Source: Thermococcus sp. 18S1 | GTDB taxonomy: Archaea; Methanobacteriota_B; Thermococci; Thermococcales; Thermococcaceae | Length of the DNA stretch: 64,000 nt | Reading direction: 5' to 3' | Assembly: GCF_012027645.1 (NCBI RefSeq) | Contig: NZ_SNUU01000001.1 | Span: 1,922,001 to 1,986,000, forward strand | In this document: positions 18,311-63,042 of the stretch, one piece after another | How positions within the stretch are numbered: position 1 is the first letter of the stretch | Layout of the letters: each line of letters starts with the position of its first letter | Notes under the pieces: model-generated | What the model was told of the DNA's origin: nothing | Database searches by the model: none | What the model saw: only the letters and a program-made list of their open reading frames with translations | Position numbers and translations under genes: made by a program

Positions 18311-21300
18311 ATGAGAAAAAGAGTTGTATTCTTAATTTATCTCCTTCTAGCTTCCTATTTAAACGTGGGTTTCGTCGGCGTTTCTTCCGTGGCTCCCAGC
18401 AGGGGGGCACCATTTTCCTCGGGAGACTCGGACGTTATCGGTATGGGCCATCTACCAGCAGAACCGGTGGGCGGGGGACTTCAGATAGCTATTCTCTCCC
18501 CCGAGGAGAAGATATACAACACCGCAATGATATATCTGAACGTCACGGCCAACAAGCCGGTTGATGAGTGGAGATACTCCCTCAACGGAGGGGAGAACGT
18601 CACGTTCGAGCCGAACATCACGATAGCCGCTCAGGACGGAGATAATCTCCTCATGGTGTACGCCCTCGCCGGCGACGAACGGGCAGAGGCCAGGGCGAAC
18701 TTCTACGTGAACGCGAGCGAGGAAGATGAGACTCCGCCGGGAACCGTTAGGAACCTAACGCACGAAGTTGGGGCAGACTACATCCACTGGACGTGGGACA
18801 ACCCAGAGGATGAGGACTTCGAAACGGCGCTGATTTACTTGGACGGAAAATTCGAGGACGAGACAGACGGGGGCGAGTGGTGGCTCGATGAGCTTTTGCC
18901 CGGCGAGACACACACGATTGGAATCCTCACGAGGGACTACTCCGGGAACGTTAACACCACGTGGGTGAACGACACCGCAACGACGCTCACCCCTGCAGAA
19001 ACGGTTTACGTAAACGAGAGCGGCTGGTGGTACGAGGGAAGCAGCATTAATCCCAGCGAGACGCCGTTCCAGGACGGAATAGACGGTTCCGTCGATGGTG
19101 GAACGGTCATAGTCCTCGCAGGAACATATCCAGAGAGCGTGGAGATAGACAAACCCCTCACCGTGAAAACGAGCGAGAACGCTCGCGTTACCGGTGACGG
19201 CTCCGAGTGGGCGAACGGAAGGAAGCCCGTCTTCTACGTGAGCTCCGACAACGTCACGCTGAGGGGATTCGTCATAGCCTCGTCGGTCTCGAACATCGGC
19301 ATCTGGGTGGATGGCGTCGAGAACTGTACTGTTGAAAACAACACGATTACGATAACCGAAACCGAGGAGGACGAACGCTACGGAATCTATCTCAGCTACG
19401 GCGGGAGCAACGTTGTTAGTAACAACGACGTGAGCGTTTCGGGCTTCCAGGGTGTCGGAATTTACGTCTACGAGGAAGAGGGAGAAGCCAGCGACGTCCA
19501 CAACAACACCGTTGCGGTTATTGGAGACAGCGCCGACGGAATAGAGGTCTTCTACACCTCGGCGTGGGTTTACGACAACACGGTCTCGATAGACGGAGTA
19601 AGCGAGAACCCCGGCTACGCGCTCTACTTATACCTCGCGGGAGATTCGTTTATAGACAACAACAAACTGACGACCGACCTCTCCGAGACGAACGCCTGGG
19701 CAATAACAGTCATCGGGGAGTTCAGGGGCTCGCTGAGCGGGGACCTGATAAACGGAATCCAGACCGAGATAGTCTGCCCCGGAAACTGTCTCGTGAGGGG
19801 CGTTTCTCCGGAGAACCGGCCGGCACCGCCGGAGGGCTACGGCGACGTTGGGGAATACATTGAGATAGACGTGGACAGCTGGATTCATCTGGGGCTCTAT
19901 TACGACGATTCGGCCCTTGGGGGTCTCAGGGAGGACAGCCTCCAGATATGGCACTTCAGCGAGGGCTGGACGCTCGAGGAAACGAGCGGGCACCATTTGG
20001 ACACGAACAAGAACCTTGTCGAGGCCAACCTGACGGGGTTGGGCATCTTCGCGCCGCTCGCCCAGGAGGAGAACGACATCACCCCACCTGTCCTCACCTT
20101 CGTTGAGCCAACGCCAAAGGACGGCTCCCTGATCGGCGACTCAAGCGTGGTGATAAACGTCACCTCGAACGAGAACCTCGCCCTGGCGACCCTGGAGTTC
20201 GACGGGACAAACCATACGATGCTCGGCTCGGGAAAGGACTGGTACTACCCGATGAACGTTGCTGATGGTGCTCACACATTCAGGGTTTACGGCCAGGATT
20301 TGGCCGGGAACAACGGGACGAGCGAGGAGAGGAGCTTTGAGGTCGACACGAAGGCCCCGGAGTATTCAAACGTCGGCCAGGATGTGGAAGGGGTTCCACC
20401 GGGCGGAGAGGTTCACGTCCACGCCTTCTGGAGCGACCCCCACCTGAGCTCGGCGAGGTTCAGGACCAACGCCACAGAGGGTGCGGCCTGGGAGTGGATA
20501 GACGAGACCTTCTTTGAGGGAAGCGAGGGCTGGAGCAACTTCACGATTTCAACGGACGGCCTCGAGCCGGGCCTCTACTGCTGGGAAATAGCCGGAGCGG
20601 ACAGCCTCGACCGCGTGAACACGACCCCGATGGAGTGCTTCAGGGTTTATGCACCCCCGGAAATAGTCTCGTACTCGCCGGAGAGCCCCGCCGAGAGTTA
20701 CGTCGGCGATACCGTCGAGTTCTCGGTAACCGCGGACCAGACCGTAAACGTCACCTGGTACCTCGACGGGAGCGTCGTGAAGACGGAGGAGAACGTTGAG
20801 ACATCCACCTACACGAACTCTGATGTGGGAGAAGGAGAGCACAGCGTCAGGGCCGTCGTCGAGAACCCAAACGGCTCGGCGAGCCAGTTCTGGGCGTGGT
20901 ACGTCTACCCGAGACCGAGTCTCACCGTGAGCTTCGTGGAACCGACGCCCGAGAACGGGGCGATGCTCAACGTGAGGAGGGTCATCATCAACGTCAGCTC
21001 CTCACTCGACCTTGACAACGCCACCTTCGAGTGGAACGGCGTCAACGAGAGCATGAGCGGTTCGGAAAGGAGCTGGTGGGTTATCAAGGAAAACCTCGCG
21101 GACGGAACCTACACCTTCCGCGTTTACGGCTCGGCCGAAGGAATGACCAACGCCACGGAAGAGAGAACGGTGGAGATAGACGCAACGGCCCCAGGGTTCC
21201 TCGAGTACGGCCAGAGCAGGGACGCGGTGACCGCTGGCGGCGACGTTGAGGTCTTCGCGAGGTGGAGCGATGCCCATCTCGAGGGGGCGGTCCTGGTCAC

Positions 21301-24271
21301 GAACGCGACCTTCGTTGATGGGGCCTTCGTATGGAGCGAGGTGCCGCTCCAAATCGCCAACGGCTGGAGCAACGGGACGATAAGCACCGACGAAAACTTC
21401 GCCGGGAAGGTTTTCTGCTGGTACATAAGGGTGAACGACACCTTCGGGAACGAGAATGAGACGCCGAGGCTCTGCTTCAGGGTCGAGGAAGGGTTGAGAA
21501 TAGTCTCGTTTTCGCCCGAGGAGAACGAGGTGGAAGTGCAGGACAACGGGAGCGTGAACTTCTCGATAACCCTGAACCGCGAGGCGAACGTGACCTGGTT
21601 CGTGAACGAGAGCCCCGTGAAGAGAGAAAGGGGGGAGAGCTCAAGCTACTTCAACGATACCCTCGTCCCGGGAATCTGGAACGTGACCGCTGTCGCCCGC
21701 GAGGAAAGCGAAGAAGCGGCCCACTCCTGGAGGCTCGTCGTGAAAACGGACGCGACTCCCCCTGTTCTCACCTTCGTTCCCCCCACTCCCGAAAACGGCA
21801 GTCTGATCGGCACGGCAGGCGTTACATTCAGCCTAAGGGCGGATGAGACACTGAGAAACGCCACCCTCCACCTGGACGGGAGGAGCTATGCCATGGAGGG
21901 CTCCGGCAGGGACTGGACGGTAACAGTAGAGATCGGAGATGGGGAGCACAGTTTCATGGCAACCGGCAAGGATGCCCACGGCAACGTCGGAACGAGCGAG
22001 GAAAGAGAATTTGAGGTAGATACAAGGGCACCGCGCTGGGTCCGCTACGGGCAGGAAACGGACTCGATCACGCGGGGAGAAAGCCTGGGAGTTCACAGCC
22101 TCTGGGAGGAGGCGAACCCCTCCGAGGCGGTTCTCATAACGAACGCCACCGCCGACGGCGGCTGGGCCCCCGTTGAATCCATGGAATACTCGAGCTGGGC
22201 GAACTTCACCCTTCAGACGGGGGGCCTCAGCGCGGGCCTGTACTGCTGGCGCGTGGAGGCCAGCGACACGCTCGGACACGTGAACTCAACGCCCATGGGG
22301 TGCTTCAGGGTCATCGAGCCGCTGAGGATAGTTTCATTCTCGCCCGAGGCGGAGGAAATCACCCTCAGGAAAAACGAAACGGCGGCCTTCTCCATAGCGC
22401 TCAACCAGGTGGCGAACGTCACGTGGACAATCAACGGGACGGTTGTTCTGGAGGAAGAGGAGAACGGCTCGACCTACACCAACTCCAGCCTCGTCATCGG
22501 CCTATGGAACGTCAGCGTGAGGGCCGAGAACGGGAACGGCACTGCAAGGCACTGGTGGCTGATGCGGGTGGAGGAACGCGAAAGCCCGCTCGAAATAGCC
22601 GTTCTCGCGCCTGGGAACGGATCGAGGATAAAGGGAAGCTGGGTAAAGGTCGAGGCGGAGGCGAGCAGGGAGCTCTCACTGGCGGTTCTGGAGCTGGATG
22701 GGGCCAACCACACGATGCTTGGCTCGGGAAGGAGCTGGAACCTGAACGTCTCCTTAAAGGATGGACATCACGTCTTCAGGGTCTACGGCACGGACGCGGC
22801 GGGAATCTGGGCAAAAAGCGGGGAGCTGACCTTTGAATCGGATGGAAATCCCCCGGAGATAACGGTAAACTGCCCGGACACGGTGGACGAGGGAGCATCG
22901 GTGACTGTGGAGGTGAGCATACACGATGCCCACCCCGCGAGCTACGAAATCTACAGGGACGGCGTCCTTCAGGAGGAAGGCAGTTACTCCAGCAACACCA
23001 CGTTGCGCGTGGTCTTCCAGGCACAGGAGCCGGGGATGGTGGAGTACAGGGTGTGGGCCAACGATACATTCGGATGGGAAAGCGAGGGGACGGTGCAGAT
23101 ACGGGTGAGGGATACGACGCCCCCGAAGCTTACCCTCCTCCCGCCCACGCCGGAAAACGGCTCGGTCCTAAACAGGAACATCGTGGAGTTCAGACTGCTC
23201 TCAAATGAAAACCTCTCACGGGCGGTGCTGGACCTGAACGGGACCGCGCATGAAATGACCGGTTCCGGAAGGAACTGGAGTCTGTCATTGGCCCTCGAGG
23301 ACGGACGGTACGGCTTTTACATCGAGGCCTGGGATGTCGAGGGCAACGCCAACGAAACGGAACACAGAACGTTTACGGTTGATACGACACCGCCGGTTCT
23401 CGCGTTCATCCCGCCAACACCGGAGAACGGCTCCCTCGCAGGTTCGTGCACAATGACCATCGCTGTGAACGCGAGCGAGGAGCTGGGCAGAGCGGTTCTC
23501 GAGTTCGGCGGAACTAACTTCACGATGGAGGGCTCGGGCAGTGTCTGGAGCCTTACCGGCGAACTCTGCTCCTCCGACGGCCAGCACTCCTTCAGGGTTT
23601 ACGGAACCGACCTCGGGAACAACACCGGGGTGAGCGAGACCAGAACCGTCGAGGTGGACTCAACGCCACCAGTTATCAGGTGGGTTCACGCCAACAACAT
23701 GACCCCCTCCGAAATGGGAATCTTCACCGCGGAGAGGCTCTCCAACGCGTCCTTCGAGATAAACGTTACCGACGAGCACCCGCTGAGCTATCAGATCTAC
23801 CTCAATCCCGAGCCAGGCCACCTGGAGCTTCCGGCACGGGAAGGACGCTACTGGAGCGGCGTCCCGTTTGGATTCCCTGTCAGAACCGACGATGTGAGAA
23901 CCGACGTTTACCGGGTGGTCGTCTACGATGCCGCCTTCAACCACGCAGAGCTCACCCTCATTGTCCACGTCGTTGACACGAGGGCACCTGGTCCAGTTGG
24001 GGGCCTGAACGTCAGCACGAACAGCTCCGGGTTCACGGCGACCTGGAGGAATCCCGATAACGACGACTTCGAGAGGGTCGAGCTGTACCTCGACCCTAAG
24101 GAGGGGGAGAACGAAAAGGGGGAGAGGATAATCGACTGGAACTCCTCCCGCATCGCCAACCTGAGCGGCGAACCGGGGGAGGAGATGAGATTCTCGATGA
24201 ACTCGGCCACGGAAGGCACGTCCTGTACGCGAGAACCTTCGACAGGTACGGGAACGGCGGGGAGCCCGTGA
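18311..24271 (+). CDS. Giant surface protein, N-terminal part (frameshifted)
   Basis: The 1986-aa frame begins with a signal peptide (KRVVFLIYLLLASYLNVGF, residues about 3-25) and encodes an exported, heavily glycosylatable protein with many N-x-S/T sites. Order: Ig-like and fibronectin III-like domains; a right-handed beta-helix of the NosD/pectate-lyase type at about 235-420 (VENCTVENNTITI, GIYLSYGG); then three tandem units of about 280 residues made of Ig-like domains, each opening with FVxPTPxxG; then shorter repeats. The last fibronectin-like domain runs into out-of-frame residues after about position 1957. In the -1 frame the domain continues cleanly into the next open frame, so this is the front part of one protein. 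Start follows AAGGTGAG. Confidence 0.85.
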   Translation: MRKRVVFLIYLLLASYLNVGFVGVSSVAPSRGAPFSSGDSDVIGMGHLPAEPVGGGLQIAILSPEEKIYNTAMIYLNVTANKPVDEWRYSLNGGENVTFEPNITIAAQDGDNLLMVYALAGDERAEARANFYVNASEEDETPPGTVRNLTHEVGADYIHWTWDNPEDEDFETALIYLDGKFEDETDGGEWWLDELLPGETHTIGILTRDYSGNVNTTWVNDTATTLTPAETVYVNESGWWYEGSSINPSETPFQDGIDGSVDGGTVIVLAGTYPESVEIDKPLTVKTSENARVTGDGSEWANGRKPVFYVSSDNVTLRGFVIASSVSNIGIWVDGVENCTVENNTITITETEEDERYGIYLSYGGSNVVSNNDVSVSGFQGVGIYVYEEEGEASDVHNNTVAVIGDSADGIEVFYTSAWVYDNTVSIDGVSENPGYALYLYLAGDSFIDNNKLTTDLSETNAWAITVIGEFRGSLSGDLINGIQTEIVCPGNCLVRGVSPENRPAPPEGYGDVGEYIEIDVDSWIHLGLYYDDSALGGLREDSLQIWHFSEGWTLEETSGHHLDTNKNLVEANLTGLGIFAPLAQEENDITPPVLTFVEPTPKDGSLIGDSSVVINVTSNENLALATLEFDGTNHTMLGSGKDWYYPMNVADGAHTFRVYGQDLAGNNGTSEERSFEVDTKAPEYSNVGQDVEGVPPGGEVHVHAFWSDPHLSSARFRTNATEGAAWEWIDETFFEGSEGWSNFTISTDGLEPGLYCWEIAGADSLDRVNTTPMECFRVYAPPEIVSYSPESPAESYVGDTVEFSVTADQTVNVTWYLDGSVVKTEENVETSTYTNSDVGEGEHSVRAVVENPNGSASQFWAWYVYPRPSLTVSFVEPTPENGAMLNVRRVIINVSSSLDLDNATFEWNGVNESMSGSERSWWVIKENLADGTYTFRVYGSAEGMTNATEERTVEIDATAPGFLEYGQSRDAVTAGGDVEVFARWSDAHLEGAVLVTNATFVDGAFVWSEVPLQIANGWSNGTISTDENFAGKVFCWYIRVNDTFGNENETPRLCFRVEEGLRIVSFSPEENEVEVQDNGSVNFSITLNREANVTWFVNESPVKRERGESSSYFNDTLVPGIWNVTAVAREESEEAAHSWRLVVKTDATPPVLTFVPPTPENGSLIGTAGVTFSLRADETLRNATLHLDGRSYAMEGSGRDWTVTVEIGDGEHSFMATGKDAHGNVGTSEEREFEVDTRAPRWVRYGQETDSITRGESLGVHSLWEEANPSEAVLITNATADGGWAPVESMEYSSWANFTLQTGGLSAGLYCWRVEASDTLGHVNSTPMGCFRVIEPLRIVSFSPEAEEITLRKNETAAFSIALNQVANVTWTINGTVVLEEEENGSTYTNSSLVIGLWNVSVRAENGNGTARHWWLMRVEERESPLEIAVLAPGNGSRIKGSWVKVEAEASRELSLAVLELDGANHTMLGSGRSWNLNVSLKDGHHVFRVYGTDAAGIWAKSGELTFESDGNPPEITVNCPDTVDEGASVTVEVSIHDAHPASYEIYRDGVLQEEGSYSSNTTLRVVFQAQEPGMVEYRVWANDTFGWESEGTVQIRVRDTTPPKLTLLPPTPENGSVLNRNIVEFRLLSNENLSRAVLDLNGTAHEMTGSGRNWSLSLALEDGRYGFYIEAWDVEGNANETEHRTFTVDTTPPVLAFIPPTPENGSLAGSCTMTIAVNASEELGRAVLEFGGTNFTMEGSGSVWSLTGELCSSDGQHSFRVYGTDLGNNTGVSETRTVEVDSTPPVIRWVHANNMTPSEMGIFTAERLSNASFEINVTDEHPLSYQIYLNPEPGHLELPAREGRYWSGVPFGFPVRTDDVRTDVYRVVVYDAAFNHAELTLIVHVVDTRAPGPVGGLNVSTNSSGFTATWRNPDNDDFERVELYLDPKEGENEKGERIIDWNSSRIANLSGEPGEEMRFSMNSATEGTSCTREPSTGTGTAGSP
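20084..22590 (+). repeat. Three tandem ~840-bp protein-coding repeats
   Basis: Three consecutive units begin near 20084, 20926 and 21753. Each encodes three beta-sandwich domains in the same order: one opening FVxPTPxxG and closing ExxxFEVD or VEID, one with a NAT...CW.I/V..D pattern ending CFRV, and one beginning IVSFSPE or IVSYSPE and holding VTWxxxG or VTWFVN. Divergence between copies is considerable, so these are ancient protein repeats and not recent DNA duplications. Further single-domain copies with PTPENG occur near 23140, 23410 and 24320. Confidence 0.75.
24150..24215 (+). other. -1 frameshift window joining the two surface-protein frames
   Basis: The upstream frame is sensible to ...LSGEPGEE, then becomes low-quality before its stop at 24271. 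The -1 frame is open through the same interval and reads DEILDELGHGRHVLYARTFD then GNGGEPVSVRF, which matches the fibronectin-like domain near residue 190 of the same protein (WWLDELLPGETHTIGILTRD). The crossover lies near the G5 run at 24175-24179. One missing G there, real or a sequencing undercall, or ribosomal -1 slippage would restore a single protein of about 4400 residues. Confidence 0.75.
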
Positions 24272-27200
24272 GTGTCAGATTCACCGTCCCGCTGCCCGAG
24301 TTCATACTCTACTACGTCGAGCCCACTCCGGAGAACGGAACGGTCCTCCCGGGCGAAGTCCAAGAGGTTACCGTGACGGTGGTTTCCAGCGTGCCCCTGA
24401 TGGAGTGCTGGATCACGTGGAACGGCGTGCCGCTGGCGATGGGAGTAACCCAGAACACCTGCAGGGCGAGGCTCCACGTCATCCCCGGCGGGGAATACAG
24501 CTTCTCGGTCTCCGCGGTGGACATTTACCGGCGCAGAGTCGAGACGGAGAGCAGAACGTTCTCTGTGGAAGGGATGTGTTTCGTTGAAGGCGACAGTCTC
24601 GAACTGAACCTGCCGGACGAGGCGGGCTCCCTACGCTTCCCGGTGAACTTCACGTTCGTAACGAACAGCCTCGCAAAGGCATACACCTACCGCGCCTCGG
24701 TCATGGGAATGAGCGTCGAGAATGCCTTTAAGCCCGACATCGAGGTCGTGGGCTTTAAGGATGTTGAGAACGACATCGAAGGGCCCTTCGAAGGGAAGGT
24801 GAAAAGACTCTACGTTGTCAGGGGCCATTTCGTCGCGGACCTCTGGGAAATCCAGGACGCGGTTCTGAAGGGGACGGAAGAAGGAAAGCCGGTGAGCCTG
24901 GAGATAACGGCCACGGATGACTGCGGAAAGCAGATTAAAGCGGGGGGAGAGCTAACTGTCTGCAAAAACCCGGAGAAACCCGCCCTCGCGATAAACATGG
25001 AAGACTTCTATTACCGGGACGAGGACGTCGTAATGTCGGCAGAGGCAACCAACGGGGTGCAGATCAGGGAATTCCACTACTCCATCAACGGCGGTCCGTG
25101 GGTTGAGTTCAACGGAACCGCGAACCTGACGGGCCTGCTGAGGCCGGGCGAGAACTTCGTATCGGTCAGGGCGGTAAGCGAATGTGGACTGCGGACGGAA
25201 GAGACCGTAAAAGTCTTCCTTGGGCCGCCAAGCGATGGGGACTGGATTGTAAACGACACCGAGGCATGCCTCGGGCACGAGTTCAGCGTCAACGGCGGGC
25301 TCATCATACAGGAAACCGGGAACCTGACACTGCGGGGCTGCAAAGTCCATCTCAACGGCGGCGTTCAGCTGGACGGTGCGCTGGGAGTCCTCGACGGCTC
25401 GCTGATAGGGAACGCGAGTGAGTTCTCCGGGGAGTTCGGAAAGCTGGACGTGAGGGACTCGACCGTCGAGAACATTGGCGGGGGTATATTCACAGAGGGA
25501 ACCGCGGTCGTCAGAAACGCCGTGCTTTCCGGCGAGTTCACCTTCGAATTCACGGAGCTTGACGTCGATTCCAGCAATATCGACGGAGGCATCACGGTCC
25601 TCGGGACCGTTGGTATCACCAACACCATGGTGACGGGCGGGAGCGGAATCACCCTCACCGGCTCGAACGAGGGCACCATCGAGAACGTCACGGTTCGGGA
25701 CTGCGCCTACGGCATTCACCTCATAAACGACAACGGAAAGGACGTGACCTTCAGGAACATCCTCGTTGAGAACCCGCGCGAGGCTGGGATTTTCATGGAT
25801 CTCCTTCCAGGTTACTGGTTTGGAGAAGGGGTTTTCACAAACCTGACGGTGATAGAAGGGGCGGTGATAATAAACGGCGGGAGCGCGACCTTCGACCGCT
25901 CAAGGATAGAGCCGGGGGACGGCTACGCCGTGCTGGCGGATGCCGCTGGAAAGATACTGACGTTTAAGAACTCCAGCGTGAGCGGAAGGGGAATCCTGGC
26001 CAGGAAGCTCGCGACCCTCTCGCTCCAGGACAGCAACCTAACTGGGGACATCACGGGAGATGTCGGATGGGTTGAGGTTCTGGTGAGTCACGGAGGAAAG
26101 GCGTCCCTCAGAGGAGGCGCGGCGGAGAACGTACACGGCGACGTCAGAGGTGTCCTGTCCATTGTTGACTACAGGCTCAACGGGGGAGATGCGACGGTGT
26201 TCGGGGGCGGAACGCTCCGGGTGGAGGACATGAACGGAATCCCCGCGACAGACCCCTCGGACGGGGACGCAAGCGTTCTGAGAAACATGCGGATCCAGGA
26301 GATGTCCACGGGAGAGGAAGCCCACCTCGTCGTCCTCAACGCGAGGCTCGAGAACACAACCATCGTAACGGATTCCAAGTGGCTCCTGATACGTGGGAGC
26401 GTGGTCAACGGCAGGCTCAGCCTCAACACGGGCGATGAATCCCTGAGCGGGGGCCTCAGCGAGACGCTTGCCTTTGGCTCGATGACAAGCTGGTACTACA
26501 CCACCGGACCGCTTCCCGAAAACTGGTACTACTCCCAGGACACGACGGGCATGACCGAAAGCGATGCCCCGTTCTTCGTCCAGACCTCTACTGCACCAAG
26601 CGGGTGGGGCTCGGGAACGGCCCTCGGAGAGTTCGCCACTCTCTATCTGAAGAAAACCTTCACCGTGGAAGAGCTTCCGGCCGAGGCGGTTCTCAGCTAC
26701 TCCGCCGTGGGGAGGGTGGAGATATACGTGAACGGGCGGAAGGTCGTCGATGACCGGAGAATCGGCGGGATGTCGTTCAGCGGAATGAGGCTCCACGGGG
26801 TGCCGCACTCCGGGAGCGCTGACGTGGCCCCGTACCTCCTGCCCGGCAGGAACCTGATAACGGTTCGCGTGGAGCTTCCATCAGCCTACCCCTACCAGTC
26901 TCTCGGGGCCTTCAGGGTCTCCCTAACCCTAAAAAGCGGCCTCTCGACGATAACCGACAGCGTTCTGAGCGGAGAGGTCAGCGGGTACGGCACGAGGGCA
27001 GTCCTCGCCAGGGACGAGGTGCATTCGGGACTTAGCTTCAGTTATCTCTCGTGGGTAACAATCTCCGACTCGAATGTTCACGGCACGGTGGACGTGGTCG
27101 GCAGGATCGAGCTGGTCAACAGCGAGCTAATCGGCAACGGGAGCGGAACAGGGCTTAAGATGACCGACTACGGGAAGATATCGGTCGAGAACTCCAGAAT

Positions 27201-30200
27201 ACACGGCTTCGGGTACGGGATAATGGGAGCGAGCGAGGTAAACGTAACGGAAAGCGAAATCTACGACAACGACGTCGGAATCCACCTGCGGAGCGCGAAG
27301 ATTCTCGTCAAGGACTCGTACGTCAGGGACAACGGCGTTGGCATAGCGACCCGCAACGTCACCGGCAGGATAGAGAACAACGTGATTTACGGAAACGACG
27401 TCGGGATAGCCGTGAACACCGGCGGGAACACCTACACGAGGGGCAACAGGCTCTCAATAACTCACGATACTGTGGTTGGGAACTCGCTTGGAATTCGCTT
27501 CGATGGGAACTATAGCTCCGGCTACGTGAGCGTCACCGAGAGTCTGATACAGAACAACGACCTCGGCCTGCTCCTCAACTCCACGCTGACGCCAGAGGTG
27601 CGCTTCGACTCGCTGGTGAACTACAGGGACGTGCTGATAGAGAGTCGCTTCTCCCCGACACTCCGGGACATAGACTGGGGAGGGACGGAACCTGTAATGG
27701 TGCCCAGCTACCCCGAGGGGTTCATGTACACGTGCGACGGTGAAGTCAGGGACGACTACGACATCCTCGCCAGAAACTGGAAGCCCGTCATCCTCCTCAA
27801 CTCCACAGAAACCGGGGAGGACTGGGGCTCCAGCCTGCTCTCCGCGTTCCTGAGGGTGTACCCCCTCGAAAACGGCTCGGTCAAGGGCGTCGTAACCCTC
27901 GCCGGGAGGGCCGTATCGAGGGACGGCCTCTCGAAGGTCGTCTATTCCCTGGAGCGGAACGGAAGTGTGGAGACCCTCGCGGAGGTGAGCGTTGGCTCAG
28001 AGACCTACGACGACTACGTGCTCCTCGACACGCAGGGGATGAACCTAACGGGCCGGGGGGTGCTGAGGTTTACGGCGGTCGATTCCACCGGCAAAAACCT
28101 CACTGGCGCCGTGAGCGTGTACTTCGCCAACGCTGAGATAGTGATAGAAAACGTGAGCGTCGATAACGCCACCAACATCTACAGCCTCTACCGGGTTAGT
28201 TACGAATCCAGCGATATGAGTTCCTGGGATATGAGCCCAAACAGGGGCAGATACGCCAACGTCACCGTCGTGCTGAGGAACACAGGGCTGATAAACGGAA
28301 GTGCGAGGGTTGTGCTCGACCTGCCGGAGTACGTCGAGAGGCACACCGGGAGGGTTGAGGGCCTCGCCTACCTGCCGCCCAACGGCTCGCTGGCCCTGGA
28401 GTTCTCGGTGCCGATAGTGGAGTACGACATGGGGACACTGACGTGGGACGTTCTGCCAGATGAACTTCCGAACGTGGGTAAATTCACGGCGTGGGTCAAG
28501 CTCTATGACGCGGACAACGTGCTGAGGGAAGAGATACCGGTTAAGGTGGGCTTCACCCTCGGGCCGGTTTTCAAGATAACTGATTATACCATGTACCCGT
28601 ACTCTAGAGCATACTGTGAGAGCTACCCGGACTTCTGCCACAACAGCCCGCCCTACGACGGGGACGGCGACGATACGGTTGAGACGGCGGAGAGCCATCA
28701 CTTCGACCTGAGTTATGAGAACGTGGGGGACGAAGACGCAAACGTAACCGAGATAATGTTCAAAGAAAGCATCCCCGAGAAGGATAAGGGGACAAAGGCC
28801 CTCAAGAGCCACAACACGGAGATATACCCAGACCCGTTATACCTCACCCACCGCCGTTCTTACCCCCTCTGTACCGCCCTAGTCGATGTCAGCCAGAGCT
28901 CCTTCGATCTGCTCGGAAGCGCCCCGGTTGGGGTTGAGAAGATGGGAAGGGACCTCTTCACAGGATGGTGGCTGGATCTGCCGCCCGAAGTGATACCTCC
29001 CGTCAACTTCACCGGACAGTACCTCACCAACGCCTGGTTCTTCTACACCGGCGAGGACGGGATGAGCTACTACACCCCAAGCTTGAACTACAAAAAGCAG
29101 CCTGTGAAAGCTCTGAACAAGACATTCGTGCCCCAGACGGTGAAGATGAATCCGATAGACGTCAATGTGATGGCAGTCAAGGATGGAAGGACCTACGTCA
29201 CCCTTCACAACACCAACGGGAACGTGTACTACGACTACTTCGTCCAGGGCTCCTACGGGCCCGGCGAGGGCTTCCGGTGGTACCACTTCATGCCGCCGGA
29301 CTTCACCATGAAGGCGATAGCGGATAACAGCCTCCAGCCCAACAAGACGATACCCCACTACAGGATCATGGTCGGTTTCAGGCCCTCGATGACGGGGAAC
29401 CTGCTCAAGTGGTTCGCATCCACGCTGAACGCCGTTCTCGGAGTGCTCGGTATTGACGTTCCGGCGGAGACCCTCACGCTGGCGCTCGCGCACACGCTGA
29501 TTAAGGTCGTGAACCTGGCCGAGACCATAGACTTCCAGACGGAATCAGAGAGCTTCGAGTCGATAAACGCCAGCTCCCGCAGGAGCGAGGTAGACGCTGC
29601 CCTTATGGCCAGCAACGAGACGGTGATAGCGCCGGTGGGCATAGACACCTTCGCCAGGCTGGAAGAGAGCTATGGCATGGATCGGGAATACTACGCCAAC
29701 CTGGGGGGCCTGGACGAACTGCCCGTGGCACAGCAGGCCCAGGTGGCCGGAAAGTTCGCAAAGGCGATAGCGCTGGACGAAGACCTTCAGATACTCCTCC
29801 TGGAGACGATAATAGAGGTAAGCGACATGAACCTCTACTACAACCTGGCCAAGATAGCGAAGGGCGTGTACAGCGGGAACGCCGGGGAGGTCGTTGGGGC
29901 CGGCGGGGCAATAGGCACGGCCGCGCTGAAGAAGGCTCTGAAGGAGGCCGCCAAAGATGCCGTGCTTGAGGAAGTGAAGAAGACGAGCTACTACAAGAGC
30001 CTGACCCCCAAGGAGCGGAAGGCGTACACAAAGAAGGTCGGCAAGGGCGTCGGGGCGGTGGTAACTTACGCCTTTGATATGTCCCAGTTCGTGACCTATG
30101 TGGTTCTGGCCCCTGTTCCGGGAACCAAAACGATATACGTTCTAGACCCGCCGGGCAACTTCACCGTGCATCCCGAGGAATCCAACGTGACGGTGCTGGG

Positions 30201-31563
30201 TAGAGGGGCCGTTGGAGTTGGCAGAGGCAGCATCTCGCTCTCATTGGGAGATTTGGACGTTTACCGGGCCACCTACGTCGCCTCGACCGAGAGCCTGCCG
30301 ATATCTGCACTCTTCAACGGAACCCTGCTCTGGATGAGGACCAGCGTGGAGGGCAGGAGAAACGGCGAGATGCTCGGGAACGTGACGATAACCATGAGAC
30401 CTACGGCCGAAAGTGCAGGCCACCTCCTGGCGGCGTTCCGGGATGACAGCATGGTGGAGACACTCCTCGGGGGCTACTTCGCCGAGAAACCACTCTGGAA
30501 CATCTCCATGGACGGAGGCACGGTCATCATCACCGCCTCCGGAATCCTGAACGCCCAACCGTACGAGGAGGAAACGAGCATCGAGGTCTTCACGAACGCG
30601 AACGTAACCTTCGCCAACGTGACCCGCATCGGCCGCTACGGAAACGTCATCGAGATTATGCCCTCCTTCGTCCCTATGAACTCAACTGAGGTCAACGTAA
30701 CCGGAAACGCTTCAGTGGGAGTTTCGGAGGGTGTCATAACCGTCGTCAGGGGCAGGGTTGAGATTACAGAAATCGACGCGGCACCGCTGACCCTTCCACA
30801 GGGGGAGCGGATAACCCTAACCGCCCCCGCGGAATGCACCGTTGAATGGAGGTTCGACGGGGAAACCGGACGGGGCATCTTCGTCCCAACGGACGGGGCC
30901 GAACCCGGGAACCACACGCTCGAGGTCACCTGCCTCATCGGAAACCTCAGCGCGTCGAGGAACTTCACCGTTTCAATAGCCCAACCGCAGGTCGTCGTGA
31001 GAAAGACCTCCGGGGCCCTCGTGGAGGGCTCGGGATTCGTCGTGCTCGAGTTCGGAACCGACCTCCAGATGATCTCCCTCGTCGCTCCGGGGGAGCTGAA
31101 GGGCGTCGTGGCCGTGTCGCAGAACCCAGGCGGGACTGTGGATGGCTATCTCGTGTACTCGACCTTCAACGTCACCCATCCGAAGAAGTGGAGCGTGGAG
31201 AACGTCACCCTGTACTTCAGGGTGCCGAGGAAGTGGTTCGGGGAGAACAACGTCAGCCCTGAGGAACTGGTCCTCCTGCGCCGCGAGGGCGGCTGGGCAG
31301 AGTACCGGCCGGTTCTGGAGTACGGAGACGGCGAATACCTCCACTACCACGCCAGCGTCCCGGCCCTCTCGGTCTTCGCCGTTGCGGGGAAGGTCAAGGC
31401 GGAGGAGCAGGAAAACGAAGAGACGGAAACGACATCTGAAAAGCCCCATGAGACCCAAAGCACAACCCCCTCCGGAGGGGAAAGCGGAAGCAGCGCCGTT
31501 TATTACCTCGCCGGTGTCTTGCTGCTTCTGCTGGTGGCTATTTACCTCTACAGAAGGCGCTGA
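24268..31563 (+). CDS. Giant surface protein, C-terminal part
   Basis: The 2431-aa frame has no signal peptide of its own and starts in mid-domain (GTG at 24268 is only the first possible start). It holds Ig-like domains, a long beta-helix segment with short right-handed repeats (about residues 330-1130), CARDB-like domains, an acidic DGDGDDT calcium-site-like loop, an alpha-helical insert at about 1700-1940 with a glycine-rich stretch, a PGF-pre-PGF-like domain (YFRVPRKWF... VPALSVFAVAG), a Thr/Ser/Glu-rich stalk and a C-terminal membrane anchor (YYLAGVLLLLLVAIYLYRRR). It supplies exactly the anchor that the upstream frame lacks. Likely a cell-surface or S-layer-associated protein. Confidence 0.85.
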   Translation: MSVRFTVPLPEFILYYVEPTPENGTVLPGEVQEVTVTVVSSVPLMECWITWNGVPLAMGVTQNTCRARLHVIPGGEYSFSVSAVDIYRRRVETESRTFSVEGMCFVEGDSLELNLPDEAGSLRFPVNFTFVTNSLAKAYTYRASVMGMSVENAFKPDIEVVGFKDVENDIEGPFEGKVKRLYVVRGHFVADLWEIQDAVLKGTEEGKPVSLEITATDDCGKQIKAGGELTVCKNPEKPALAINMEDFYYRDEDVVMSAEATNGVQIREFHYSINGGPWVEFNGTANLTGLLRPGENFVSVRAVSECGLRTEETVKVFLGPPSDGDWIVNDTEACLGHEFSVNGGLIIQETGNLTLRGCKVHLNGGVQLDGALGVLDGSLIGNASEFSGEFGKLDVRDSTVENIGGGIFTEGTAVVRNAVLSGEFTFEFTELDVDSSNIDGGITVLGTVGITNTMVTGGSGITLTGSNEGTIENVTVRDCAYGIHLINDNGKDVTFRNILVENPREAGIFMDLLPGYWFGEGVFTNLTVIEGAVIINGGSATFDRSRIEPGDGYAVLADAAGKILTFKNSSVSGRGILARKLATLSLQDSNLTGDITGDVGWVEVLVSHGGKASLRGGAAENVHGDVRGVLSIVDYRLNGGDATVFGGGTLRVEDMNGIPATDPSDGDASVLRNMRIQEMSTGEEAHLVVLNARLENTTIVTDSKWLLIRGSVVNGRLSLNTGDESLSGGLSETLAFGSMTSWYYTTGPLPENWYYSQDTTGMTESDAPFFVQTSTAPSGWGSGTALGEFATLYLKKTFTVEELPAEAVLSYSAVGRVEIYVNGRKVVDDRRIGGMSFSGMRLHGVPHSGSADVAPYLLPGRNLITVRVELPSAYPYQSLGAFRVSLTLKSGLSTITDSVLSGEVSGYGTRAVLARDEVHSGLSFSYLSWVTISDSNVHGTVDVVGRIELVNSELIGNGSGTGLKMTDYGKISVENSRIHGFGYGIMGASEVNVTESEIYDNDVGIHLRSAKILVKDSYVRDNGVGIATRNVTGRIENNVIYGNDVGIAVNTGGNTYTRGNRLSITHDTVVGNSLGIRFDGNYSSGYVSVTESLIQNNDLGLLLNSTLTPEVRFDSLVNYRDVLIESRFSPTLRDIDWGGTEPVMVPSYPEGFMYTCDGEVRDDYDILARNWKPVILLNSTETGEDWGSSLLSAFLRVYPLENGSVKGVVTLAGRAVSRDGLSKVVYSLERNGSVETLAEVSVGSETYDDYVLLDTQGMNLTGRGVLRFTAVDSTGKNLTGAVSVYFANAEIVIENVSVDNATNIYSLYRVSYESSDMSSWDMSPNRGRYANVTVVLRNTGLINGSARVVLDLPEYVERHTGRVEGLAYLPPNGSLALEFSVPIVEYDMGTLTWDVLPDELPNVGKFTAWVKLYDADNVLREEIPVKVGFTLGPVFKITDYTMYPYSRAYCESYPDFCHNSPPYDGDGDDTVETAESHHFDLSYENVGDEDANVTEIMFKESIPEKDKGTKALKSHNTEIYPDPLYLTHRRSYPLCTALVDVSQSSFDLLGSAPVGVEKMGRDLFTGWWLDLPPEVIPPVNFTGQYLTNAWFFYTGEDGMSYYTPSLNYKKQPVKALNKTFVPQTVKMNPIDVNVMAVKDGRTYVTLHNTNGNVYYDYFVQGSYGPGEGFRWYHFMPPDFTMKAIADNSLQPNKTIPHYRIMVGFRPSMTGNLLKWFASTLNAVLGVLGIDVPAETLTLALAHTLIKVVNLAETIDFQTESESFESINASSRRSEVDAALMASNETVIAPVGIDTFARLEESYGMDREYYANLGGLDELPVAQQAQVAGKFAKAIALDEDLQILLLETIIEVSDMNLYYNLAKIAKGVYSGNAGEVVGAGGAIGTAALKKALKEAAKDAVLEEVKKTSYYKSLTPKERKAYTKKVGKGVGAVVTYAFDMSQFVTYVVLAPVPGTKTIYVLDPPGNFTVHPEESNVTVLGRGAVGVGRGSISLSLGDLDVYRATYVASTESLPISALFNGTLLWMRTSVEGRRNGEMLGNVTITMRPTAESAGHLLAAFRDDSMVETLLGGYFAEKPLWNISMDGGTVIITASGILNAQPYEEETSIEVFTNANVTFANVTRIGRYGNVIEIMPSFVPMNSTEVNVTGNASVGVSEGVITVVRGRVEITEIDAAPLTLPQGERITLTAPAECTVEWRFDGETGRGIFVPTDGAEPGNHTLEVTCLIGNLSASRNFTVSIAQPQVVVRKTSGALVEGSGFVVLEFGTDLQMISLVAPGELKGVVAVSQNPGGTVDGYLVYSTFNVTHPKKWSVENVTLYFRVPRKWFGENNVSPEELVLLRREGGWAEYRPVLEYGDGEYLHYHASVPALSVFAVAGKVKAEEQENEETETTSEKPHETQSTTPSGGESGSSAVYYLAGVLLLLLVAIYLYRRR

Positions 31564-57669: not shown

Positions 57670-60600
57670 ATGAAGAAGGTCGTTGCACTGGTTTGGATCA
57701 TAATCTTGATATCCTTTTTAGTGGGAATCCCTAAATCAGTAGCCTCCCCAGGAACACCAAGCCACAAGTATGTTTTTCCAATGGTGTATCTGAAGTCCTA
57801 TTGGGGCTCAAGTGCCTACGAGAGTGCAGTATATGTTATTGCAGTAGAGGACACAACTATCTGGATAGACAAAAATTTCAACGGGCCTGATTCTTCAGAT
57901 CTAATTTACCACCTATCAAAGGGAGACAGACTCAGGATAGGCAAAGCAAGTGGAGCATATTCCAGCCCGGAGGGCGTTAAAAACGTTGATTGGGACATAA
58001 ATCCCCTCGTGGTGTATTCTAGCCATCCTATCATAACTTTTGCATCCCACGCTGACGCAGATTACGGCGATTATGAAGATGGCAACCTCAAATATTCTGC
58101 CCCGGAACCGGGGACTAAACTCTTGGGAACTAACGTCAGGTGGCTCTACATAACCCCATATTCAGGAGATGCTAAAGTATACATAAATGGTGACTATGCA
58201 GGCCAGGTAGAGTTTGGAGAAGTTCTTGTCAAAAAGTTCTCAAGCCCGCAGACCGTTGTAGTTACATCAGATAACCCGGTGGTTGCGGTTGCACTCTACC
58301 TTGACGAGAATTACAGAAGCAAAACATACGCATTTCCGCTAATGCCCCCAATGAGCGGAAAATTCCTCATTCCAGATTCAGTTGAAAGCTACGCAAAGGA
58401 AAAAAATGCCATAACTGTGAATGAATACTATATGATAATGGACTCCAATGGGGATATAGTTAAAAAATCAGATTTACCTTCAGAACCAAAAGTACTATCT
58501 TTAACAGACTCCGCGGTCTTTGTTTTCAGGACATTTTACTACAAAGATCCTTGGGGCGATGATGCACCGAGATATGCAATGAGTGCTCAGGCGTTAAAGC
58601 CACTTCAGGATTCGACAATATTTGGAATTATTAGCCCCAAAAGCAGACATTTAGTAACGAGCGAGTTAGTGTTCTACGCAGATGATAGCGTAAAAGTTTA
58701 CAAAGATTACAACTATGATGGTATAATTGATTCAGTTGAAACTCTCACAGGGGGTAAAGTGTACAAATTCTCAGATCACGAGATCAATCCTGACTCAAAC
58801 ACAGGGATATACATTATCGGCAAAGTCACAGGATATTACTTACTAGTTGGGGGATGGTCATATCAGATAGAATATGCTTATGAGATAGGCGCGACACCTA
58901 CTCTTAAGATCTCGACCCAAATATCTTCAGAATCTTCTCAGCAAACAGGATCAGAGCATACTATCTTTTTCGATGACTTCGAGGACTATCCCCTATGGAG
59001 TTATCCCTCTTCAAACTGGGTATTAGACTACGATGGGGCAGGAAAAGAATACCAGAAAATAGTTTCAAATCCCATTAAGTCCGGCTCTAAGGCTTTCCAA
59101 ATGCTCTCCGATTCTGGCTGCTGGGCGGCGGTTTCGGAACACAAGTTCAACTCTAACGCGGAGATAATCGGCTTTGAAGCCGATGTGTGGGCCGAGAGTT
59201 ATGGAACCAAAGGCTGTGGAGAAGATAAGACCAGCGTCATTAGACTTGCCTTCTGGAATGGTGGTTTGGATTCCTGGGGCAGATACTATGCTGACTTGAT
59301 ATTCAGGCACAATGGAATCGCCTACGCATACTCAGAGGGTGAAGAGCATCAACTAACGTCCTGGAAACCCGGAACATGGTATCATGTAAAAGTCATTTTG
59401 AACAGAAAAACGAATACATACGACGTTTACATAGATGGAAAGCTCGTTGCCGATGATATACTAGTGGAACACAGTGATACCGAAAATATTAACGCAATAG
59501 TTCTGACGGCAGGACATGCGAATACCAAGGTTGTCTTTGACAACGTGAGGGTCTTTGAAGTTACTTCAAGCCCTTCTTCAGGTGGCATTGACCTCTCCCG
59601 CGGCTTAGTCGCTTACTATTCTTTCGACCACGGCGACGCCAGAGACGAGAGCGGCAATGGACATGATGGCGAGATTTACGGGAACTCAAAGTGTGTCGAT
59701 GGAGTTATTGGGAAGGCGTTTGAGTTTGATGGGGATTCTTATATCAAGGTTCCTCACAGTAATAATCTTGCTCCTCCGTGCTATACTGTCAATGTGTGGT
59801 TCAATCCAACAGAAACTGCAATCTCAGGAGAGAGTGGAGACGAAATAATTTCTAAAGGGTACGATAAGCTCTACTACCAGATACAATGGGGTGGAGGGTA
59901 TTCAACGGATGACAACGAGGTTGAATTTTGGCTAGAGAATGAATACGATGAGGATGTATATATCTACTCCAATCCCATTGAATTGAATAAATGGCACATG
60001 GCCACCATGAGTTACTGCAATGGAGTACTAAGCGCATACATTGATGGGAACCTTATAGAGAGCAAACACATCGATATTATCCCATACAACAGCGGAGAAA
60101 ACTTGTATATCGCTACCGGTGATTCTGGATACTTCAAAGGTCTCATCGATGAAGTCCGCATCTACAACCGCGCCCTGAGCGAGAAGGAGATTAGGGCACT
60201 GTATGAACAGGGTATTGGCGGCTCTAGAGGAACACCCACCACGCCAACGAACACTCAGACATCAACACCTACACAAACCCAGACGGCAACCACCACACAA
60301 ACGCCAACACCCACATCAACCCTCGCCCCAATCGCCAGGAGCCAGATTGAAACCGCCGAGGACATTCTCTCGAAAATCCCGAGCTCAATAGACGTTGGCG
60401 ATGCAAAAACAATGCTCGAAGAGGCCCGGAAGGCCTACCTTAACCAGGATTACGAGCTGGCCAAAAAGTTTGCCGAAACGGCCCAGGCTCTGGCAGTTAA
60501 GGCGTACTACGATAAACTCAGGGCCAACCTTCAGGTAAAGGAAAGCCAGGGGCAGGATGTAGGCAAAGCCAAAGACCTTCTCCAGCAGGCGTATGAAGCT

Positions 60601-63042
60601 TACCAACGTAAAGACTACACCAAGGCCCTCGACATACTCTCCCAAGCTGATCTCGTCCTTCAGGGCGTTCAGTCGGGCGAAACCAGCCCGCTGAAGTATT
60701 TAGCAATTCTCGTCGTTATTGGAGGAATGGCCGTTATCGGTTTCACCTATTCCAGGAGGAAGAAAGCCGAGGGGGAAAGACTTAAGGCGGATTTCGACGC
60801 CAGCCTGAAGTCCGGCGACAACATAGTGGAAAAGGACCCGTTCGGTGCCCTTGAGTACTACTCAAGAGCATTCAGGATAGCAAAGAAGCTCGGAGATCCA
60901 AACCTCAGGGCAAAGGCACAGGAGAAGCTCAACACGGTTAGGGGAACGGTAATAGCGGAGATAAACTCGCTCATCTCAAGGGGCAACGAAGCTTTGGCCA
61001 AGAGCGACTACGACAAGGCGCTGGCCTATTACAGGCAGGCTCTCAGTTTAGCCCAGAAGCTGAATGATGAGGAGAAAATCAGAGAAGCGAAGTCCAAGAT
61101 GGAGGGCGTGAACAAGGTCAGGAAAATCAGAGAGCTCCTCTCAGAGGGCGACGTCCTGATGGAGGGCGAGAAATACTCGGAGGCCTTAGACAAATACGAA
61201 GAAGCGTTGACAATCGCTAGGGAAATTGGTGACGGCTACCTCATCGAACTCCTGAAGGGCAGGGTGTCCAGGGCAAGTGAGGTGGTTGAGAAAACCAACG
61301 CGGCCGTTTCGTCCCTCATCGGGCAAGCCAGCAGGGACATGATGGAGGAGGACTACGAAAGCGCGATAGAAAAGCTCTCGCAGGCTCTCGTTCTCGCGGA
61401 GAAGGTAGGAACCGTGAGCGTCGAGGACATAAAGGCCAAGCTTGAGGAGGCAAAGAAGAGGAAAGAACTCAGAGACAAGCTCAGGGAAGCAAAATCTGCC
61501 AAGGACTATTCCCAGGCGCTGGGGCTCCTCGGGGAGGCCCTCACCCTCGCTGAGGAGCTGGGCGACGAGCGGACGGTTGCCCAGATAAGGAACGAGATTG
61601 AAGACGTCAGGAAAGCCCAGATACTCGAGACCCTGAAGGACGGGGTAAGCCTCATCCTCCCCAAGGAGATACCCTACGGACGAGAAACTACCCTCAGCAT
61701 AAACATCGAGAACAGACTGAACGAGACCATAGAAAACCTGACGGTAGACCTCTCGGAGCTTTCACCGTACTTCACGCTTGGGGAAGAAAAGATAACCTTC
61801 CCACCCATAAGGCCCAGAAGAAAGCTCGGCAGGGACGTCAAGCTGAAACCCCAGTTTAAGGGGGACTTTGACTTTAACGTCAGAATCTCCTCAAGCCTTG
61901 GTGAAACCGTGAAGACGCTGAGCGTTAAGGTTGGCGACTACTACGCTCCAGCTCAATTCACACCCAAGCCTCTAACGCCAAAAGCCGCACCTGAGGAGCT
62001 TGAGGCATTCTACGAGAACTTCCAGTACATCGGCGAGGGCGGCTTTGCCCGTGTCTTCAAGGCCAGAAGGAAAAAGGACGGCAAGATAGTCGCCGTGAAG
62101 ATTCCGAAGACTCTCGACCCCGCCACGGGCAAGGCCTTCGTCAGGGAAATAAGCAACTGGCTCCACCTCAAGCACTCAAACATTGTGGAGCTCTACGACG
62201 TCAACGTTATTCCAATACCGTACCTTGAGATGGAGTACTGCGAGGGCTCGCTGGCAAAGCTTGGAAAGCCGATGGACGTGGAGCAGGCCGCACACATCGT
62301 CTTCAACATTGCAGAGGGATTAAAGTACGCCCATTCGAAGGGCATAATCCACCGCGACCTGAAGCCTAGCAACGTTCTCCTAAAGGCAGGAATTCCAAAG
62401 ATAAGCGACTGGGGACTAAGCAAAGTCATGAGTGAAAGCAGGAGCTCAACACTCTCGAGCTTCACCCCCTACTATGCTTCACCAGAACAGCTCTCGCCGA
62501 GGCGCTTCGGCCACACCGATGCCAGAACCGACATCTGGCAGTTAGGCGTTCTCTTCTACGAGCTGGTTACCGGAAAGCTGCCCTTTGAGGGAAGCGATTT
62601 GGGGGAGGTTACCTTCGCGATAATAAACGAGGATCCGGTTAAGCCCAGCAAGCTCAATCCAGAGGCAAAGCTCGTCGAGCCCATAATCATGAAGATGCTG
62701 GCGAAGAAAAAGGAAGAGCGCTATCAGTCGGTCGAAGAGCTACAGAGAGATCTGGCAAAGGTTCTCAATATGACCTACGTCGAGGGGCTGAAGAAGAGCA
62801 GGGATTTGAAGAGAACGGTCTTCTACATCGGCGATCTGGCGTTGATAAACCTCAAAGCAGGCGACCTCAAGGAAGCCCTGAAGTACCTGTTGGAGCTGAG
62901 AGAGTACGCAGGGGAGTACGAAAAGGACCTGGACTGGCTAGTCGACCAAGTGAAGCTCGCGATGGAGGAAGGAGTTAAGCTCGGAGAAGATGCAGTGATG
63001 AAGGCCGACGTGATAGTGCACCAAATAAAGATGGGGAGGTAA
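57670..63042 (+). CDS. Transmembrane receptor-like Ser/Thr protein kinase
   Basis: A 1790-aa single-pass protein. Residues 1-27 are a signal peptide; about 30-410 a beta-rich secreted region resembling IgGFc-binding-type domains; about 432-633 and 640-848 two LamG/concanavalin-like domains; 854-887 a Thr-rich stalk; 890-1005 helical repeats; about 1011-1032 the membrane segment (YLAILVVIGGMAVIGFTY). Inside: TPR-like helical repeats (about 1040-1315), an Ig-like domain and a Hanks kinase (about 1450-1700) with GEGGFARV, the AVKI lysine, HRDLKPSN, DWG in place of DFG, and ASPEQ. A helical tail follows. The catalytic residues look intact, so it probably phosphorylates Ser/Thr in response to an outside cue. 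Start follows GGTGGTGGG. Confidence 0.88.
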   Translation: MKKVVALVWIIILISFLVGIPKSVASPGTPSHKYVFPMVYLKSYWGSSAYESAVYVIAVEDTTIWIDKNFNGPDSSDLIYHLSKGDRLRIGKASGAYSSPEGVKNVDWDINPLVVYSSHPIITFASHADADYGDYEDGNLKYSAPEPGTKLLGTNVRWLYITPYSGDAKVYINGDYAGQVEFGEVLVKKFSSPQTVVVTSDNPVVAVALYLDENYRSKTYAFPLMPPMSGKFLIPDSVESYAKEKNAITVNEYYMIMDSNGDIVKKSDLPSEPKVLSLTDSAVFVFRTFYYKDPWGDDAPRYAMSAQALKPLQDSTIFGIISPKSRHLVTSELVFYADDSVKVYKDYNYDGIIDSVETLTGGKVYKFSDHEINPDSNTGIYIIGKVTGYYLLVGGWSYQIEYAYEIGATPTLKISTQISSESSQQTGSEHTIFFDDFEDYPLWSYPSSNWVLDYDGAGKEYQKIVSNPIKSGSKAFQMLSDSGCWAAVSEHKFNSNAEIIGFEADVWAESYGTKGCGEDKTSVIRLAFWNGGLDSWGRYYADLIFRHNGIAYAYSEGEEHQLTSWKPGTWYHVKVILNRKTNTYDVYIDGKLVADDILVEHSDTENINAIVLTAGHANTKVVFDNVRVFEVTSSPSSGGIDLSRGLVAYYSFDHGDARDESGNGHDGEIYGNSKCVDGVIGKAFEFDGDSYIKVPHSNNLAPPCYTVNVWFNPTETAISGESGDEIISKGYDKLYYQIQWGGGYSTDDNEVEFWLENEYDEDVYIYSNPIELNKWHMATMSYCNGVLSAYIDGNLIESKHIDIIPYNSGENLYIATGDSGYFKGLIDEVRIYNRALSEKEIRALYEQGIGGSRGTPTTPTNTQTSTPTQTQTATTTQTPTPTSTLAPIARSQIETAEDILSKIPSSIDVGDAKTMLEEARKAYLNQDYELAKKFAETAQALAVKAYYDKLRANLQVKESQGQDVGKAKDLLQQAYEAYQRKDYTKALDILSQADLVLQGVQSGETSPLKYLAILVVIGGMAVIGFTYSRRKKAEGERLKADFDASLKSGDNIVEKDPFGALEYYSRAFRIAKKLGDPNLRAKAQEKLNTVRGTVIAEINSLISRGNEALAKSDYDKALAYYRQALSLAQKLNDEEKIREAKSKMEGVNKVRKIRELLSEGDVLMEGEKYSEALDKYEEALTIAREIGDGYLIELLKGRVSRASEVVEKTNAAVSSLIGQASRDMMEEDYESAIEKLSQALVLAEKVGTVSVEDIKAKLEEAKKRKELRDKLREAKSAKDYSQALGLLGEALTLAEELGDERTVAQIRNEIEDVRKAQILETLKDGVSLILPKEIPYGRETTLSINIENRLNETIENLTVDLSELSPYFTLGEEKITFPPIRPRRKLGRDVKLKPQFKGDFDFNVRISSSLGETVKTLSVKVGDYYAPAQFTPKPLTPKAAPEELEAFYENFQYIGEGGFARVFKARRKKDGKIVAVKIPKTLDPATGKAFVREISNWLHLKHSNIVELYDVNVIPIPYLEMEYCEGSLAKLGKPMDVEQAAHIVFNIAEGLKYAHSKGIIHRDLKPSNVLLKAGIPKISDWGLSKVMSESRSSTLSSFTPYYASPEQLSPRRFGHTDARTDIWQLGVLFYELVTGKLPFEGSDLGEVTFAIINEDPVKPSKLNPEAKLVEPIIMKMLAKKKEERYQSVEELQRDLAKVLNMTYVEGLKKSRDLKRTVFYIGDLALINLKAGDLKEALKYLLELREYAGEYEKDLDWLVDQVKLAMEEGVKLGEDAVMKADVIVHQIKMGR

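Follow-up and report, generated by a model that had tools for sequence, protein, structure and literature searches.

A giant surface-protein gene of Thermococcus is split between two open reading frames (ORFs) in the window, the whole 64,000-nucleotide stretch analyzed here (C1:1922001-1986000 of a 1.99-Mb Thermococcus genome). The two ORFs lie on the same (+) strand in adjacent frames and constitute one gene rather than two, together encoding ~4,417 native residues. Comparison with intact relatives suggests that they may well have been parted by an ordinary single-base lesion, this strain or species having very recently lost one base at ~24202; we slightly favor such a deletion over a base-calling or assembly error.

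One surface-protein gene in two reading frames

The features of the locus are as follows:

18311-24271, + strand: ORF1, 1986 aa
18311-24202, + strand: native-frame part of ORF1, 1964 residues, with signal peptide, NosD/right-handed β-helix, Ig-like (Big_13) repeats and FN3-like strands 1-5
24100-24271, + strand: stretch open in both frames; the final upstream stop in the ORF2 frame is TAA 24097-24099
24175-24179, + strand: G5 run, of equal length in the intact relative G013 and not the lesion
24200-24204, + strand: frameshift site, short of the relatives by one base (seen in translations and in DNA aligned with five intact relatives)
24203-24271, + strand: out-of-frame tail of ORF1, 22 non-homologous residues ending at TGA 24269-24271
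24268-31563, + strand: ORF2, 2431 aa, with β-helix domain, PGF-pre-PGF domain, Thr-rich linker, transmembrane anchor and RRR

An earlier note had described this gene as one surface protein split by a single −1 shift, with an upstream frame that carries the signal peptide and no anchor and a downstream frame of the opposite character. Our analysis agrees on each count. A single −1 move joins the two ORFs; ORF1 has one hydrophobic segment, at its N-terminus (the signal peptide), and no transmembrane segment besides it, and ORF2 has a transmembrane segment and then RRR at its C-terminus, with no signal peptide found. Pfam and NCBIfam assign ORF1 a NosD/β-helix domain and Ig-like repeats, and ORF2 a second β-helix and a PGF-pre-PGF domain, the latter (TIGR04213) passing its curated cut-off (37.9 bits vs 28). 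The whole protein is predicted to run from signal peptide and β-helix through an Ig/FN3 stalk to a second β-helix, the PGF-pre-PGF domain and the membrane anchor.

Relatives carry this gene unsplit. When 121 genomes were searched with ORF2, the match in 13 of them lay within one continuous frame of 4,057-4,712 residues, enough to span both ORFs, so the split is established beyond chance; five more genomes match at or near contig ends, where the gene is not judgeable as a whole, and seven loci were fetched for comparison. In one further genome of the 121, G034, the same gene is split at a different place. An arrangement in which the split itself is conserved was therefore rejected, as the relatives are unsplit and G034 is split elsewhere. 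These proteins delimit a family of giant PGF-pre-PGF Thermococcus surface proteins that have the C-terminal half and anchor in common (37-89% identity across ORF2), with one uninterrupted frame in 13 species, a break elsewhere in G034, and the break described here. A first protein scan of genome contigs returned no matches; an alignment scan of them found matches in two Thermococcus MAGs and a distant Micrarchaeota locus. The literature searched yielded no paper on this family.

The break falls within a domain that is complete only in the relatives, bearing out the earlier suggestion that a fibronectin-like domain is whole only across the frame change. In relative L079, AlphaFold predicts that the corresponding domain forms a sandwich of seven strands (five models, the best with pLDDT 89.9, from a two-sequence alignment), and the prediction matches FN3 modules in the PDB (E about 6e-4); the domain across the break thus has a fibronectin-III fold in that relative, as modeled. 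By sequence, the junction domain had no Pfam fn3 match, and a PDB profile search turned up a single weak match (0.01). Alignment places the break between the fifth and sixth strands, with the last strands encoded just upstream of ORF2 and at its start. The junction domain has matches in 18 of 61 genomes of the genus, and tblastn recovers it in two pieces (residues 1-86 and 83-135) in this genome only.

Position and age of the frameshift

DNA alignment with five intact relatives (G013, G040, G049, G005, and G004) shows a single one-base gap at 24202, where the surrounding sequence otherwise hardly differs from that of G013. The ORF1 translation matches the relatives through EEMRFSMN (SGEPGEEMRFSMN), to base 24202, and the ORF2 frame matches them from LGHGRHVLYARTFDRYGNGG onward. 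Because the ORF1 frame agrees with the relatives up to this base, the shift lies at 24200-24204, in a two-base run rather than a long homopolymer, and not at the G5 run 24175-24179, near which it had previously been placed. That run, 23-27 bases upstream of the lesion, was rejected as the slip site: G013 has an identical run and an intact frame. The junction had likewise been drawn at 24150-24271; both frames are indeed open there, but the open region is wider, extending over 172 bases from 24100. At its end, the GTG of ORF2 overlaps the ORF1 stop by four bases (GTGA). This overlap arose by chance, since these bases are also present, in frame, in the intact genes of G013 and G049.

Both halves of the gene are under purifying selection, with dN/dS of 0.20-0.24 against G040, G049, and (N-terminal half) G013, and pairs of intact genes give similar values. 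Relative to its intact orthologues, the gene contains this single indel, and no second lesion was found in its 13.25 kb. With both halves near 0.2 and no other lesion, either the base loss is very recent or it is a sequencing error.

One-base breaks are rare in this genome at large. Comparison of 575 kb of coding DNA with G049 left only two that were convincing, the present one included, and the reverse comparison gave about two for G049 in 571 kb; the background lesion rate is therefore about 1 per 0.3 Mb in both genomes, where convincing breaks were chosen by inspection, most automatic candidates being antisense or non-coding ORFs. The other break in this genome (C1:1826051, L054) affects a small secreted protein and shortens a G run, and the apparent frameshifts of G049 lie at C1:612933 and 636486 (loci L092, L093). 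In G034, the giant gene itself carries an independent one-base frameshift at a C5 run (L032:5164-5239), just under 600 codons upstream of the break in the window. For about 15 complete copies, 0.3-0.65 broken ones are expected against the two observed (P of two or more, 0.04-0.14), an estimate that involves small numbers and assumes equal lesion rates across genomes. The two broken copies are compatible with background and are not a clear excess.

Explanations for the break

In the assembled sequence, the frame shifts inside the FN3-like domain at ~24202. Were the base lost from the chromosome, translation would end at TGA 24269-24271. The N-terminal product would be secreted and lack an anchor, with 1964 native and 22 foreign residues, and the anchored half, devoid of a signal peptide, would be cytoplasmic, provided that translation restarts at the overlapping GTG in the first place. 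With the anchor missing from one half and the signal from the other, the anchored full-length protein would be lost. The contending account, nearly as probable in our judgment, is that the consensus dropped one base and the gene is intact in the cell. A very recent lesion looks identical to a sequencing error in an assembly, and a lone lesion in a 13.25-kb gene kept under purifying selection, where every other full-length copy but one is intact, is what an error would leave; moreover, the second one-base loss in this genome shortens a G run, an error type of some sequencing methods. However, the present lesion lies in a two-base run, and frameshifts are few, at about 1 per 0.3 Mb compared and no more than in G049. 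Poor quality of the genome was rejected as the whole explanation, given only two convincing frameshifts in 575 kb. In addition, no N or ambiguous base occurs in the 1.26 Mb of assembly sampled, and this, together with the two-base run, mildly favors a real change over a base-calling error. A one-base split has precedent in the Pyrococcus furiosus chitinase PF1234/PF1233, which a one-base insertion divides, whereas the Thermococcus kodakarensis gene is intact; both parts are highly conserved, the split has a growth phenotype, and resequencing confirmed it (PMC3575233). The window's gene comes from the same taxonomic order, and in it, too, one base splits a protein into two ORFs whose parts are both still conserved; the differences are that it has lost a base rather than gained one, and that the loss is read from the assembly.

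Both the undercall and the recent inactivating mutation proposed earlier thus stand, but the programmed slippage and phase variation listed beside them find no support. Programmed −1 ribosomal frameshifting, which would yield the full-length protein at a controlled rate, has one well-studied case of −1 recoding in Archaea, the Saccharolobus solfataricus α-L-fucosidase fucA1, where an A AAA AAT heptamer, rare codons and a stem-loop accompany a full-length product that has been found (PMC8211752). The window's gene, like fucA1, consists of two ORFs that overlap and that a −1 shift would join. Its frames overlap over 172 bases, and there is a slippery-type heptamer, A AAG GGG, at 24115; G GGG GAG at 24175 could permit P-site slippage only. 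Unlike fucA1, it has no such heptamer or stable structure at the break: between 24175 and 24204 there is no full X XXY YYZ heptamer, the sole full one (24115) lying ~85 bases upstream, and the RNA just downstream is no stabler than shuffled sequence (z −0.25, −0.11, −0.57). The frame change is not conserved either, as the coding sequence is continuous in 13 relatives. Intact genes share the candidate runs (G040 has A AAG GGG; G013 has A AAG GGA and the G5), and slipping in those genes would leave the frame. The ORF1 frame is also conserved for 8 residues past the G5 run, and further past 24115; being conserved beyond both candidate sites to 24202, it was translated as such until recently. We therefore regard programmed frameshifting as highly improbable. 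Fortuitous −1 slippage at A AAG GGG (24115) or the G5 (24175) could also make some anchored full-length protein, which we consider very unlikely; if true, it would be a further archaeal case of frameshift rescue.

The four-base stop/start overlap (GTGA), with a G-rich stretch just upstream, might instead be read as a stable functional pair in which the ORF1 product is released and ORF2 is made by coupled reinitiation. This, too, is highly doubtful, as the break falls inside the FN3-like domain, ORF2 lacks a signal peptide, GTGAGTG is ordinary coding sequence in intact relatives, and the split is absent from other species in the junction-domain search of 61 genomes of the genus. Phase variation, with switching by slipped-strand mutation, would suit a surface protein with a one-base break in 2 of about 15 complete copies, yet it is scarcely credible here: the breaks of the window and G034 are at different sites, the former is in a two-base run with no repeat tract, no compared copy has a run longer than 7, and, with 0.3-0.65 lesions expected in about 14 copies of this 13-kb gene, the 2 observed are no clear excess.

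The recent one-base deletion thus keeps its slight preference over a dropped base in the consensus. For annotation, the locus calls for caution, as it holds one gene and not two, and it is a further example of a very long gene presenting a big target for one-base lesions or errors.

Mosaicism, repeats and a neighboring gene

The gene (18311-31563) is a mosaic. Many of its 250-base steps have ~94% DNA identity to G013 until ~25.27 kb; beyond a change near 25100-25400 it is barely alignable to G013, and dS rises from 0.28 in the N-terminal half to 1.02 in the C-terminal half. G040 and G049 remain near 90% DNA identity over most of the C-terminal half. This pattern, drawn from sequence comparison, suggests intragenic recombination. 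Within the Ig-like repeat region (21561-23310), stretches totaling ~360 residues are present in G013 and absent from G040 and G049; the repeat number therefore differs between species.

Elsewhere in the window, 57670-63042 encodes a 1790-residue protein in which a signal peptide, a LamG-like part, a membrane segment and repeats were read by eye. Its C-terminal region, also by eye only, reads like a serine/threonine protein kinase, with the motif IIHRDLKPSNVLL.
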